Source: Streptomyces atroolivaceus
GTDB taxonomy: Bacteria; Actinomycetota; Actinomycetes; Streptomycetales; Streptomycetaceae
Direction of reading: 5' to 3'
Assembly: GCF_000717025.1 (NCBI RefSeq)
Contig: NZ_JNXG01000017.1
Coordinates: 186,001 to 250,000, forward strand
DNA: 64,000 nt
The notes beneath the pieces were generated by a model. That model was given only the letters and a program-made list of their open reading frames with translations, had not been told where the DNA came from and did not search any database. Numbering within the stretch: position 1 is the first letter of the stretch; each line of letters opens with the position of its first letter. Below are positions 5,658 through 52,192 of the stretch, one piece after another. The position numbers were made by a program, and so were the translations under genes.

Positions 5658-6524
5658 TCAGGACTTGGCGGGCTCACCGAAGGCGGGGGTGATCGAACCC
5701 TTGTAGGTGTCCTCGATGAACTTCTTGACCTCGTCGGAGTTCAGGAGCTTCGCGAGCTTCTGGACACGGGGGTCGTCCTCGTTGCCGTCCCTCACCGCCA
5801 GGAAGTTGGCGTACGGGTTGCCGTCGGCCGCCTCCAGCGCCAGGGAGTCCTGACCCGGCTTCAGGCCGGCCTCGATGGCGTAGTTGCCGTTGATCACGGC
5901 GGCGTCGACGTCGTCCAGGGCACGGGGCACGGTCGCGGCCTCGACCTCCTTGAACTCCAGGCCCTTCTTGTCCGTGATGTCGCTGAGCTTGGCGTTGGTG
6001 CCGACGCCGTCCTTGATGGTGATCAGACCGTTCTCGGCGAGCAGCTGGAGCGCACGGCCCTCGTTGGTGGTGTCGTTCGGGACGGCGATCGTCTGGCCGG
6101 CCTTGATGCCCTTGATGTCCTTGACCTTCTTGGAGTAGAGGCCGAGGGGCTCCAGGTGGACGTTGACGACCGGCACGATGTGGGTCTTGTTCTTCTTGTT
6201 GAAGTCGTCCAGGTAGGGCTTGTGCTGGAAGAAGTTGGCGTCGACCTGACCGCTCTCGGTCGCGGTGTTCGGCAGGACGTAGTCCGTGAACTCCTTGACC
6301 TCCAGCTTGAGGCCGGCCTTGTCCGCCAGGTTCTTCTTGACGTAGTCCAGGATGTCGGCGTGCGGCGTCGGGGACGCGGCGACGACGAGGGCCTTCGAGG
6401 TGTCCGCACCGGCACCGGTCTCGCCCTTGGCGGCCGGATCGGAGTCCGTGCCGCAGGCGCTGAGGCCGAAGGCGAGGGCGGCGGCTGCGGCGGCGGCAGC
6501 GGTGATCTTGATGTTCTTGCGCAC
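5658..6524 (-). CDS. metQ: methionine ABC transporter substrate-binding lipoprotein
   Basis: 288-aa NlpA/MetQ-family lipoprotein that binds methionine (or a related sulphur compound) outside the membrane and delivers it to MetNI. It starts at GTG 6524 with AGAGG 9 nt upstream. The signal peptide is VRKNIKITAAAAAAAALAFG, followed by the lipobox LSAC, so the mature protein starts at that Cys. Typical family stretches are SPTPHADILDYVK, VDANFFQHKPYLDDFN and NDTTNEGRALQLLAENGLI. It is the last gene of metN-metI-metQ, 71 bp after metI, and is followed by a strong hairpin. Confidence 0.94.
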   Translation of the reverse strand: MRKNIKITAAAAAAAALAFGLSACGTDSDPAAKGETGAGADTSKALVVAASPTPHADILDYVKKNLADKAGLKLEVKEFTDYVLPNTATESGQVDANFFQHKPYLDDFNKKNKTHIVPVVNVHLEPLGLYSKKVKDIKGIKAGQTIAVPNDTTNEGRALQLLAENGLITIKDGVGTNAKLSDITDKKGLEFKEVEAATVPRALDDVDAAVINGNYAIEAGLKPGQDSLALEAADGNPYANFLAVRDGNEDDPRVQKLAKLLNSDEVKKFIEDTYKGSITPAFGEPAKS

Positions 6525-6595
6525 GAAGAGTGCCTCTTTCCGGTGGTGGGTGGTGCGCCCGGACAAGGAGTTCGGGCTTCAGGGGGAGATGAGGT

Positions 6596-7267
6596 TCAGG
6601 AAGTGGTGCGCCCTCGGCGCGCCAGCAGGCGTACGGCGCCGTCGCCGATCAGCTGGACCACGGTCACGATGACGATGAGCAGCGCGACGGTGATGAGCAT
6701 GAACTGGTCGTCGAAGCGCTGGAATCCGTAGGTGATGGCCTTGGAGCCGAGTCCTTCGCCGCCGACGGCGCCGGCCATCGCGGAGTAGCCGATGAGCACG
6801 ATGACGGTGGTCGTGACGCCGGATACCAGCGAGGGCAGCGCCTGCCGGAGCAGGACCTTGCGGACGATCGTCGGGATGGATCCGCCCATCGACTGGACCG
6901 CCTCGACGAGCCCGTGGTCGACCTCACGCACCGCCGTCTCGACGAGCCGCGCGAAGAACGGGATGGCGCCGATGGCGAGCGGCACGATCATCGCGGACGG
7001 GCCGATGAAGGTGCCGACGATCCAGGTGGTGAAGGGGATCAGGGCGATCAGCAGGATGATGAACGGCAGGGAGCGGCCGATGTTCACGATCACGCCGATG
7101 ACCTTGTTCACCACGATGTTCTGCAGCAGCCCGCCCTTGTCGGTGAGGACGAGCAGAATGCCGAGCGGCAGCCCGCCGAGGACGGTGACGAGTGTGGACC
7201 AGAGCACCATGTAGAGGGTGTCGATGGTTCCCTGCGTGAGCAGTGGCTGCATTTCGGACCAGGTCAC
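6596..7267 (-). CDS. metI: methionine ABC transporter permease
   Basis: 223-aa permease with about five membrane helices and the cytoplasmic coupling loop of binding-protein-dependent transporters (VEAVQSMGGSIPTIVRKVLL). It forms the channel of the MetNIQ importer. The start is a GTG at 7267 whose GTGA overlaps the metN stop (7264-7267), so translation is probably coupled. The alternative long open frame that runs into metN is only a shadow. Highly hydrophobic from residue 15 onward, with a short basic C-terminus ending RRGRTTS. Confidence 0.93.
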   Translation of the reverse strand: MTWSEMQPLLTQGTIDTLYMVLWSTLVTVLGGLPLGILLVLTDKGGLLQNIVVNKVIGVIVNIGRSLPFIILLIALIPFTTWIVGTFIGPSAMIVPLAIGAIPFFARLVETAVREVDHGLVEAVQSMGGSIPTIVRKVLLRQALPSLVSGVTTTVIVLIGYSAMAGAVGGEGLGSKAITYGFQRFDDQFMLITVALLIVIVTVVQLIGDGAVRLLARRGRTTS

Positions 7268-8325
7268 TTCGCCACCTCCTTGGTGATCGGGGCGGGGGTC
7301 TGGGCGGGGACGCCGACGGAGGCGGCCTCCACGATCTCGGCCTGGAGGCCCTGCTCGCGGAGGAAGCCGATCGGTACGACGTTCTCCTCGAACCGGCCGG
7401 GCAGCTCGATGCGCATACGGCCGATCTGCTTGCCGCCGACGGTGTCCATCGCGGCACCGAGGATCGAGATGTCGATGTTGTACGTGCGGGAGAGCTGTGA
7501 GATCACCGGCTGGGCCGCGGCCTCGCCGTGGAAGGTGACGTCGACGACGGTGGAGCCGGGGCCGGACGCGGTGCCGCCGACGGGGAAAAGCTCGTGGGCC
7601 AGCTCGGAGCCGGGGGTGGCCAGCAGTGCGCCGACGGTGCCCGACTCCACGATGCGGCCCTTCTTCATCAGTGCGGCGGAGTCGCAGACGGTCTTGACGA
7701 CGTCCATCTCGTGCGTGATGAGCAGCACCGTGAGGCCGAGCTCCTGGTTGAGGTCGCGCAGCAGCTGCAGGATGGAGCGCGTGGTCTCGGGGTCCAGAGC
7801 GGAGGTCGCCTCGTCGGAGAGGAGCACCTCCGGGTCGCCGGCCAGGGCGCGGGCGATGCCGACGCGCTGCTTCTGGCCTCCGGACAGCTGGCCTGGGTAG
7901 GCCTTCGCCTTGTCGGCGAGACCGACGAGGTCGAGGAGCTCGAGTGCCTTGCGGGTGCGTGCCTGCCCTGAGAGCCCGAGGATCTCCAGAGGGAGCTCGA
8001 CGTTGTCCCGGACGGTGCGCGAGTCCAGCAGGTTGAAGTGCTGGAAGACCATGCCGATGCGGCTGCGTGCCCGGCGGAGTTCCTTTCCGGCGCGGCGGCC
8101 CCGGCCCGCGAGGGCCGTGAGGTCCTGGCCGGCGACCGTCACGGTGCCCGAGGTGGGCCGCTCGAGGAGGTTGACGCACCGGATGAGGGAGGACTTGCCG
8201 GCACCGCTCTGTCCGATGACGCCGTAGACCTCGCCTTCGCGGACGTGCAGGTCCACGCCGTCCAGGGCGGTGACCTCACGGCCGCGTGACTGGTAGACCT
8301 TCGTGAGGCCCGAAGTGGTGATCAC
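7264..8325 (-). CDS. metN: methionine ABC transporter ATP-binding protein
   Basis: 353-aa ATPase of the MetNIQ importer. Walker A is GQSGAGKSS (near residue 40), the Q-loop is in GMVFQHFNLL, the signature is LSGGQKQR, Walker B is VLLSDEATSALD and the switch His is in LITHEMD. The C-terminal 80 residues (FHGEAAAQPVISQLSRTYNI onward) are the NIL domain that binds intracellular methionine and shuts transport. I take GTG 8325 (VITTSGLTKVY) because it gives the usual family length and has a weak GACGGAAA upstream; an ATG at 8379 adds 18 basic residues and has no ribosome binding site. It is preceded by a Cys-containing leader peptide at 8545-8631. Confidence 0.92.
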   Translation of the reverse strand: MITTSGLTKVYQSRGREVTALDGVDLHVREGEVYGVIGQSGAGKSSLIRCVNLLERPTSGTVTVAGQDLTALAGRGRRAGKELRRARSRIGMVFQHFNLLDSRTVRDNVELPLEILGLSGQARTRKALELLDLVGLADKAKAYPGQLSGGQKQRVGIARALAGDPEVLLSDEATSALDPETTRSILQLLRDLNQELGLTVLLITHEMDVVKTVCDSAALMKKGRIVESGTVGALLATPGSELAHELFPVGGTASGPGSTVVDVTFHGEAAAQPVISQLSRTYNIDISILGAAMDTVGGKQIGRMRIELPGRFEENVVPIGFLREQGLQAEIVEAASVGVPAQTPAPITKEVAK

Positions 8326-8544
8326 AGGGTTTCCGTCACTGTCGAGTGCACGGCGCGGTGTCCGCCGGGCACGGGGCATTCGTCTGATGAGACTGTTCTC
8401 AGTGGTCGACCGGTGGGAGTCTCGGCATGATCCGGCCTCGGCCGAGCCGCCGGGCGCGGGGTATGCCCGGGCCTGCTCGATCCGCTGGGTGCGGACGGCA
8501 CGGGCTCGGTCTCGCTTCGGGGCGCGAGGCTCAGGCGGGGGCCC
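8326..8544 (-). promoter_or_regulatory. metN leader RNA between leader peptide and metN
   Basis: About 220 nt of untranslated leader. It holds a short perfect hairpin (CCGGGC at 8450-8455 with GCCCGG at 8465-8470) and several G+C-rich partial dyads that could form alternative folds. There is no T-run, so any control is more likely through Rho or ribosome access than through an intrinsic terminator. No S-box (SAM riboswitch) core was recognised. Confidence 0.45.
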
Positions 8545-8631
8545 TCAGAAGGCGCGCATTCGACACGTACAACGAGCACCGGGCGTCGGGATCGCCTCGG
8601 TCGCAGGGCTGCGGTAGCTCGTCGTGGTCAT
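8545..8631 (-). CDS. candidate 28-aa leader peptide of metNIQ with a Cys-Thr-Cys motif
   Basis: Small frame ATG 8631 to TGA 8545, starting MTTTSYRSPATEAIPTPGA and ending RCTCRMRAF. Codons 21 and 23 are both TGT, the rare Cys codon in such high-G+C DNA, separated by one Thr. Short upstream frames ending in clustered Cys codons are known before sulphur genes in actinobacteria, where ribosome stalling at low charged tRNA-Cys changes downstream expression. Placement before a methionine importer fits a sulphur-responsive role. There is no clear ribosome binding site; the sequence before the ATG (ttttacttgggcc) may be a promoter for a leaderless start. Translation is unproven. Confidence 0.55.
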   Translation of the reverse strand: MTTTSYRSPATEAIPTPGARCTCRMRAF

Positions 8632-8672
8632 GGCCCAAGTAAAACAGATTCGACGTTCCGGCAGCCCACGGT

Positions 8673-8687
8673 GTCCGCATAGCGGAC
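8673..8687. promoter_or_regulatory. perfect 15-bp palindrome GTCCGC-ATA-GCGGAC, candidate operator
   Basis: Perfect inverted repeat 40-55 bp upstream of the leader peptide start and about 210 bp from the divergent gene at 8899. The TCCGC-N3-GCGGA core is like sites bound by IclR-family proteins; NdgR, an IclR regulator of leucine and methionine genes in Streptomyces, is a possible reader. That link is inference only. Confidence 0.5.
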
Positions 8688-51890: not shown

Positions 51891-52192
51891 GGATCCTCCT
51901 CGGTAGCACCACGCGACCGCCTGGCGGACAGCCGCGTAACGTCTTTCTTATGACCAACCGAGCGGGGAAAAACAGAAATGCCCCGGACGGGACACAGGCG
52001 GGGCTCCTGGAACTACCGGAACACCGCCGCGTGCAACCGCGGGGCGCAATCGGGCGGCCCCATCGTCCGTACGGAACGATGGCTGCCACCTGACCGGTGA
52101 CCCGCCGTCCCTGAGGACGGTCAGGTGGGAGATCGGAGCCTCCACTTGTGGGCCGAACACATAGATGTCCGGCCGGTCGTTACACAAGGTTA
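51891..52192 (-). promoter_or_regulatory. structured 5' leader and promoter of infC-rpmI-rplT
   Basis: About 290 nt from a -10-like TAACCT (minus strand, 52187-52192) to infC. Outer dyad CCACCTGACC (52087-52096) with GGTCAGGTGG (52120-52129) shares two bases with an inner hairpin CCGTCC/GGACGG (52106-52121), and a third hairpin CCATCGT/ACGATGG spans 52060-52082. Downstream is a hairpin with a T-tract (next entry). The layout is like L20-type attenuation leaders of Bacillus. The purpose is inferred. Confidence 0.7.
51968..52004 (-). terminator. attenuator-like hairpin with T-tract in the infC leader
   Basis: On the minus strand GCCCCG and CGGGGC (51980-51985, 51999-52004) form a stem with 13-nt loop, followed at once by ATTTCTGTTTTTCC. 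Such a T-run is rare in this genome type. It sits 78-114 bp before the infC start, so readthrough would decide expression. Confidence 0.65.

Follow-up and report, generated by a model that had tools for sequence, protein, structure and literature searches.

A conserved upstream reading frame with cysteine and methionine codons as a probable ribosome-sensing leader of metNIQ in Streptomyces atroolivaceus and relatives

The frame of 28 codons upstream of metNIQ in Streptomyces atroolivaceus is real and represents a conserved regulatory upstream open reading frame (uORF). It was studied in a stretch of 64,000 nucleotides, which is referred to as the window. The element to which it belongs is probably a ribosome-sensing leader of metNIQ, in which ribosomes would stall at Cys and Met codons. 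A single annotated leader peptide thereby becomes a defined and widely conserved actinobacterial element with testable parts, namely a mixed block of Cys and Met codons with an invariant CGA-AUG, a predicted RNA junction within a leaderless frame and a probable site for the regulator NdgR.

The metNIQ locus and its upstream frame

The frame and the three genes behind it are located as follows:

8631-8545, minus strand: uORF (metL orthologue, see the last section), ATG frame of 28 codons plus stop codon, peptide MTTTSYRSPATEAIPTPGARCTCRMRAF
7264..8325, minus strand: metN (ATPase), GTG start; best NCBIfam match TIGR02314 MetN, below the cut-off
6596..7276, minus strand: metI (permease), start provisional; best NCBIfam match PRK10782 MetI, below the cut-off
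5658..6566, minus strand: metQ (binding lipoprotein), start provisional; best NCBIfam match TIGR00363 MetQ/NlpA, below the cut-off

The initial annotation had postulated a 28-codon ATG frame upstream of metN, and this frame is present and kept at the loci of 136 relatives. It had also been described as ending with Cys-Thr-Cys, encoded by TGT ACG TGT; these codons do occur at 8571-8563, but they do not end the frame, as RMRAF and the stop codon come after them. A T-run downstream of the frame, which had been stated to be absent, was not seen on reading the window sequence either. Between the uORF stop codon and the GTG at 8325 lie 219 nt. Because 1-nt indels disrupt the longer frame in relatives, the ATG at 8379 was rejected as the start of metN, and the GTG at 8325 is most likely the start. 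Elsewhere in the window (51973-52181, minus strand), an Rfam match to the Streptomyces small RNA Scr1601 was detected with 181 bits.

Conservation of the upstream frame

A DNA search of 41 genomes gave matches in 38 genomes at 30 loci, 29 of which carried the frame; the 30th (L029) is a paralogue of 33% identity. With an alignment of 23 peptides, 227 of 245 genomes matched at the level of the order (E ≤ 0.01) and 125 of 249 genomes at the level of the family (E ≤ 0.001), the matches in both samples coming mostly from the window's own genus; 104 unlisted non-matching genomes of the family search were left outside the follow-up. In the own genome, this alignment yielded one strong match, followed by the next at E 1.78, and extra copies of the element in this genome were rejected on that ground. 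From 145 loci, 136 frames were retained (104 from the same genus, 26 from other genera of the family and 6 from family f3). The paralogue L029, the weak matches L032-L034 and L061-L063 and the duplicates L031 and L047 had been dropped before counting, and the frames at L157 and L159 were identified by visual inspection.

All 136 loci were found via the uORF itself or via a DNA query containing it, and the frames were obtained as open translations. The orthologues found through metN are therefore the fairer test, and only these 16 can tell whether metN ever lacks the uORF. A first search with metN revealed orthologues (at least 73% identity) in 6 of 14 genomes, and 20 further genomes contributed another ten (62-83% identity); the uORF was present in 6 of 6 and 10 of 10 cases, respectively, thus upstream of all 16 metN orthologues, one of which lies outside the order. 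For four of these 16 genomes (G356, G514, G522, G726) a peptide match was known beforehand, and the other 12 had no earlier match. The remaining 18 of the 34 genomes had no orthologue: matches either did not exceed 50% identity or were absent at the search threshold. Seven of the nine genomes of the genus without a peptide match in the order-level search hold only metN-like genes of at most 50% identity, and in the other two (G323, G372) metN is present and the uORF frame has diverged. A broken uORF frame was not found among the metN orthologues examined.

A covariance model, applied to 296 genomes of the class, matched 28 of 28 genomes of the genus and additionally G279, which belongs to another family (E 1.2e-4); further matches at E 0.005-0.1, in 16 genomes that are not of the genus, were put down to chance. 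In 27 of the 28 genomes one match was obtained per genome, and the remaining one has a second, weak match (E 0.09). The DNA pattern CGAATGYG together with the next hairpin matched 40 of 394 genomes, its reversed control none of 394. Of the matching genomes, 38 belong to the genus, from which 40 had been sampled, and two to the genus g106; both g106 genomes have the uORF before metN. A known riboswitch or RNA family was rejected, as no covariance model of Rfam 15 matched the window leader at the gathering threshold; the relative L004 gave one Rfam match at E 0.88, far under the gathering score. A known NCBIfam leader family was likewise rejected, with no match among the four peptides scanned.

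Cysteine and methionine codons near the stop codon

The putative sensor codons occupy the following position:

8554..8571, minus strand: TGT ACG TGT CGA ATG CGC (Cys-Thr-Cys-Arg-Met-Arg); family consensus Cys-Met-Cys-Arg-Met-Cys

Cys and Met are both present in 136 of 136 tails, and so is Arg-Met, which is followed by Cys in 116 and by Arg in 20 of them. At least three Cys residues occur in 99 of the 136 peptides, and the tails of family f1 contain 26.6% Cys and 18.2% Met. The second Cys codon is TGT in 110 of 130 cases before Arg-Met. Insertions in the uORF among relatives comprise whole codons, often for Cys, Met or Arg, which is partly a selection effect of frames found as open translations. 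Even lineages with unrelated first halves of the peptide retain the tail, for example CRCMCRSCQMCRMCGC, ACRCMCRMCRMRGC and GCRCMCRSCQMCRMCGC. The same applies to two loci of g106, outside the order (L190, L221), in which the tail reads ...CTRCRRMCGC or ...CTCRCRMCSH and the P4 hairpin described below is present as well.

A Thr codon stands between the Cys codons of the window; in relatives this place is mostly taken by Met and Arg. The window uORF contains one Met only besides the start. Judged from these alignments, the conserved signal is the tail of Cys plus Met (CMCRMC) and not Cys-Thr-Cys; CTC and RMR of the window appear as variants of CMC and RMC, in which one Met and one Cys have been lost. 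The Cys cluster had been proposed as an attenuation signal. The frame is indeed conserved and its Cys codons look regulatory, but the conserved block consists of Cys plus Met, and it would act by attenuation only conditionally on the mechanism discussed below.

The codon pair CGA-ATG (window 8562-8557) is invariant, CGA encoding the Arg of Arg-Met in 130 of 130 frames of f1, and it was found in the six loci of f3 as well. Neither pairing in the RNA helix P1 nor the need for the amino acid explains the constancy of CGA, which might be read slowly and in this way set the position of the ribosome.

RNA structure within and behind the frame

The following structural features were predicted:

8617..8625, minus strand: 5' arm of P1 (codons 3-5, ACGACGAGC), pairs with 8577-8569 (MFE)
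8569..8577, minus strand: 3' arm of P1 (codons 19-21, GCTCGTTGT), first Cys codon included (MFE and covariation)
8602..8613, minus strand: P3 hairpin CGCA...TGCG inside the junction
8578..8601, minus strand: P2 hairpin ACCG-A-GGCG...CGCC-CGGT inside the junction (codons 11-18)
8511..8528, minus strand: P4 hairpin CTCGC-GCCCCGAA-GCGAG, 3' of the stop codon (loop heptamer conservation)
8341..8510, minus strand: spacer upstream of metN, rich in C and poor in G, putative site of Rho loading

Codons 3-21 are predicted to fold into a three-way junction, which in the window has a z value of -2.27, with 5 of 200 shuffles equally good. For the 26 pairs of the junction and P4, 96.2% of alignment cells were paired in 125 distinct sequences, in comparison to at most 45.1% in slid controls. 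All 8 pairs of P2 form in 125 of 125 sequences, its loop-closing pair being GC in 122 and AU in 3. P1 is paired in 96.4% of cells, with one pair that is GC in 97 and AU in 24 sequences. P3 (92.8% of cells paired) shows compensatory changes at two of its four pairs, among them a change from CG to UA in two sequences; its innermost pair is open in 34 of 125. Cells altered on both sides (35 vs 8.2 in shuffles; 0/500) and pairs with a both-sided change (6 vs 3.0; 4/500) exceeded a shuffle control that ignores relatedness, and further pair types were not above it (15 vs 15.2; 344/500). The slid control at -2 reached a covariation score of 0.048 vs 0.053 for the actual structure. RNAalifold, when run unaided, reported P2 and P3 and not P1 and P4, and it offered an alternative in which codons 25-26 pair with the 5' arm of P4.

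Four-fold degenerate sites in codons 1-20 of the uORF had a mean diversity of 0.019 (12 sites) in comparison to 0.278 (38 sites) in metN among 103 sequences. Frame-breaking changes or a lack of synonymous conservation in relatives, which had been named as observations that would speak against the frame, did not appear; among the metN orthologues examined no frame was broken, and the four-fold sites hardly vary. The fold of divergent lineages was not clearly more stable than that of shuffles (z -1.93 to 1.81, 14 frames), and therefore the junction is a feature of closer relatives and the tail a deeper one.

TGT had been pointed out as a rare codon, and in metN plus metQ of the window no TGT and three TGC were counted. 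In P1 the final T of the first TGT is base-paired to codon 3, and the use of TGT at the first Cys can be explained by this helix rather than by rarity. Rarity as the only reason for the first Cys codon was rejected on account of this pairing, which leaves the preference for TGT at the second Cys unexplained.

The loop heptamer CCCCGAA of P4 occurs at most 70 nt from the stop codon in 119 of 136 loci, including 103 of 104 in the genus, and is missing in 17; two of the 119, from f3, are matches of the loop alone. In 94 distinct P4 sequences, which were chosen by this heptamer, the five pairs of the stem form in 87-90, one with five TA-to-CG changes. The constancy of CCCCGAA (window 8523-8516) exceeds the need of a plain loop, and the heptamer may be a binding site.

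In the spacers of relatives, C accounts for 45.6% and G for 28.2%, and C exceeds G in 134 of 134 leaders. The window spacer contains 41% C and 31% G, and 15 control gaps of the window contain 35% C and 34% G; these gaps were delimited by a crude gene caller, that of metN is one of them, and some of the genes called are probably spurious. The distance from the uORF stop codon to metN ranges from about 110 to 340 nt among relatives, and the spacer is poorly conserved. Its richness in C is compatible with Rho and counts as weak evidence.

Promoter and NdgR-like palindrome

Two putative control sites precede the frame:

8638..8646, minus strand: extended -10 TG-n-TTTACT, 6 nt before the ATG, putative leaderless promoter
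8673..8687, minus strand: 15-bp palindrome GTCCGCTATGCGGAC, candidate operator of NdgR (IclR family), 41 nt upstream of the uORF ATG

In 128 of 136 loci the ATG is preceded, at a distance of 6-7 nt, by TGn with TTTACT or TTAACT, and the six f3 loci have TATAGT in the corresponding region. This spacing fits the leaderless start reported for metL of S. lividans.

The perfect palindrome noticed earlier at 8687-8673 (GTCCGC TAT GCGGAC) was confirmed, and its suggested role as a second input has become probable. In 113 of 136 loci at least 10 of 12 positions agree with GTCCGNNATNCGGAC, and 23 loci score under 10. Among these 113 loci the palindrome lies 41-44 nt from the ATG in 98, 51-53 nt in 12 and at other distances in 3; between lineages its position thus differs by roughly one turn of the helix. 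Both its form and its sequence agree with the motif that ChIP-seq gave for NdgR in S. coelicolor, as far as the accessible part of the report shows (PMC4340878). One of the sites given there, GTCCGCCATGCGGAC, which was assigned to leuB by gene order in the present analysis, differs from the window palindrome in one base, and L225 has exactly GTCCGCCATGCGGAC 52 nt before its uORF. The palindrome is likely an NdgR operator upstream of the leaderless promoter. Among the 19 NdgR peaks and 34 genes of S. coelicolor in the accessible part of PMC4340878, metN is absent. The transcripts of metNIQ in S. coelicolor rise together with cysM under oxidative stress, according to the part of PMC4991794 that was available.

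With at most one mismatch, the palindrome pattern occurs ten times in the own genome in comparison to one occurrence in the control; one of the ten is metN's own site, and six others showed no link to amino-acid genes. The remaining three NdgR-like palindromes are those at L148, L149 and L147 near position 1500. Their contexts are a position about 40 nt upstream of a gene of the isopropylmalate dehydrogenase family, one between two amino-acid permease genes and one before a gene for a family 5 solute-binding protein. These palindromes form a candidate amino-acid regulon.

Proposed mechanism and alternative explanations

From a promoter with the probable NdgR site upstream, RNA polymerase would start at the A of the ATG, as was reported by others in S. 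lividans. A 70S ribosome would load on this 5' ATG and read codons 3-21, which otherwise would be folded as the three-way junction, a structure supported by covariation. When too little Cys- or Met-tRNA is charged, the ribosome would stall with its A site on UGU-AUG-UGU-CGA-AUG-UGC near the stop codon, as the conservation of these codons suggests. According to the computed folds, the stalled ribosome would occupy the 3' side of both P1 and P2, which would release the two 5' strands. If the tRNAs are charged, the ribosome would finish and depart, and the junction would refold. After its departure, transcription would terminate prematurely, probably by means of Rho, within the C-rich spacer, the start of which would be marked by P4; a stall would permit read-through to metN.

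Folding with a masked ribosome was computed for 117 leaders; the six f3 loci and the 13 f1 loci that lack the heptamer did not belong to this set. With the A site at codons 21-23, pairing of the P2 5' arm fell from 0.96 to 0.01-0.06, and 0.23-0.31 of the freed strand paired beyond the stop codon (0 when ribosome-free). The probability of P4 was 0.82 in the free RNA, 0.71-0.79 with the ribosome stalled at codons 21-23 and 0.86 with the ribosome at the stop codon; the respective values in the window were 0.77, 0.81-0.99 and 0.98. Two leaders of g106 gave one strong change of P4 and none, respectively. In 128 leaders the accessibility of the metN ribosome-binding site was 0.455 in the free and 0.485-0.50 in the masked state. 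Since P4 barely changes and this accessibility is flat, neither a simple P4 terminator switch nor a switch at the ribosome-binding site is supported by the folding, and both were rejected. The C-rich spacer makes Rho-dependent termination the best single guess for the readout, although this assignment is tentative and its probability falls somewhat short of even.

Translational attenuation, in which the metN ribosome-binding site would be masked by the uORF RNA and exposed again by a stalled ribosome, is unlikely. The cysteine genes of M. smegmatis are described as translation-attenuated in the accessible part of PMC13236596, and a leaderless uORF with Cys codons close to its stop would suit this mode of control. 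However, the pairing of the ribosome-binding site with the uORF is 0.106 in the free and 0.05-0.09 in the stalled state (128 leaders), its accessibility scarcely moves, and about 110-340 nt of poorly conserved spacer lie in between. It is quite improbable that function resides in the RNA element alone (P1-P4, to which a protein or ligand might bind) and that the frame and its Cys and Met codons are by-products. This assumption would account for the near-invariant nucleotides, synonymous sites included, for P2, which is paired in 125 of 125 sequences with one varying pair, and for the heptamer in 103 of 104 genus loci. But the frame and its tail survive where the first half differs wholly, and the inserted codons are often those for Cys, Met or Arg, even if the way in which the frames were found contributes to this. 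A single 87-nt leader, in which the junction is a ligand- or protein-sensing domain combined with a sensor of Cys- and Met-tRNA charging under the control of NdgR, is considered very improbable.

The conserved motifs CxC and RMC might also be expected of a functional Cys-rich microprotein that is made from the operon and binds metals or thiols. Such a function is hardly credible for a peptide in which residues 2-20 change at unpaired positions of the RNA and are wholly different from lineage to lineage, and in which the spacing of Cys varies. Regulation of the promoter by NdgR alone, with the uORF as a passive relic, is scarcely more credible. The match of the palindrome to the NdgR motif and its shift by about a helical turn would agree with it, but every metN orthologue examined has the uORF, even in f3 and at other loci where the palindrome is poor, and the 19 NdgR peaks in the accessible part of that report do not include metN. 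Stalling of the ribosome at the Cys and Met codons of a leader thus remains the preferred explanation.

Comparison with known systems

A leader peptide upstream of metNIQ, metL, was reported in 2021 for S. lividans TK24 with a leaderless start (PMC8079986), and therefore the existence of the uORF is not new. According to the accessible part of this paper, metL, given as MSTTSDRTPATEATTTPGARCMCRRMCAF followed by the stop codon, contains several Met and Thr, and it agrees with the window in its site before metNIQ and in the absence of a typical Rho-independent terminator; it has CMC and RRMC, whereas the window has CTC and RMR. When aligned by eye with one gap, 21 of 28 residues of the window peptide agree with the printed metL, and by this alignment the window uORF is its orthologue. 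That part of the paper describes no Cys reading, junction, conservation survey or palindrome for metL. In the literature searched, which covered few subscription papers, metNIQ, Streptomyces and a leader were treated together in PMC8079986 only, and no description of the junction, of a survey of the Cys and Met tail or of the metN palindrome was found. Added here are the Cys plus Met tail, the uORF at 16 of 16 metN orthologues, the junction with compensatory changes and the NdgR-like palindrome.

The polycysteine sORFs of mycobacteria have a consecutive run of Cys, which is absent from the window uORF and, for the most part, from its relatives. Work attributed to Canestrari in 2020 reportedly found these sORFs to be leaderless and the cysteine genes of M. 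smegmatis to be subject to translation attenuation. For mycobacterial cys operons, Cys leader peptides with a short frame, Cys codons near the stop codon and no terminator were described, and no conserved RNA element was found upstream of methionine operons, according to the accessible part of the study (Seliverstov 2005, PMC1262725). The window resembles these leaders in the same three properties; they belong to other operons, and no Met block or Arg-Met core is described for them in that part. The 15-bp palindromes of the NdgR regulon of S. coelicolor, which lie at cys, met, leu and ilv genes, are like that of the window, as far as given in the accessible part of PMC4340878.

Two characteristics of an attenuator, a conserved short frame before metNIQ and a block of Cys and Met codons near the stop codon, are present at this locus. 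In the uORF attenuator of ilvB1 of M. tuberculosis, as described in the accessible part of PMC13236596, the codons of the uORF sense the supply of amino acids, as is proposed here; that attenuator has a Rho-independent terminator, whereas no U-tract is visible in the window leader. The element described here bears on how the import of sulphur amino acids might be matched to tRNA charging without such a terminator.
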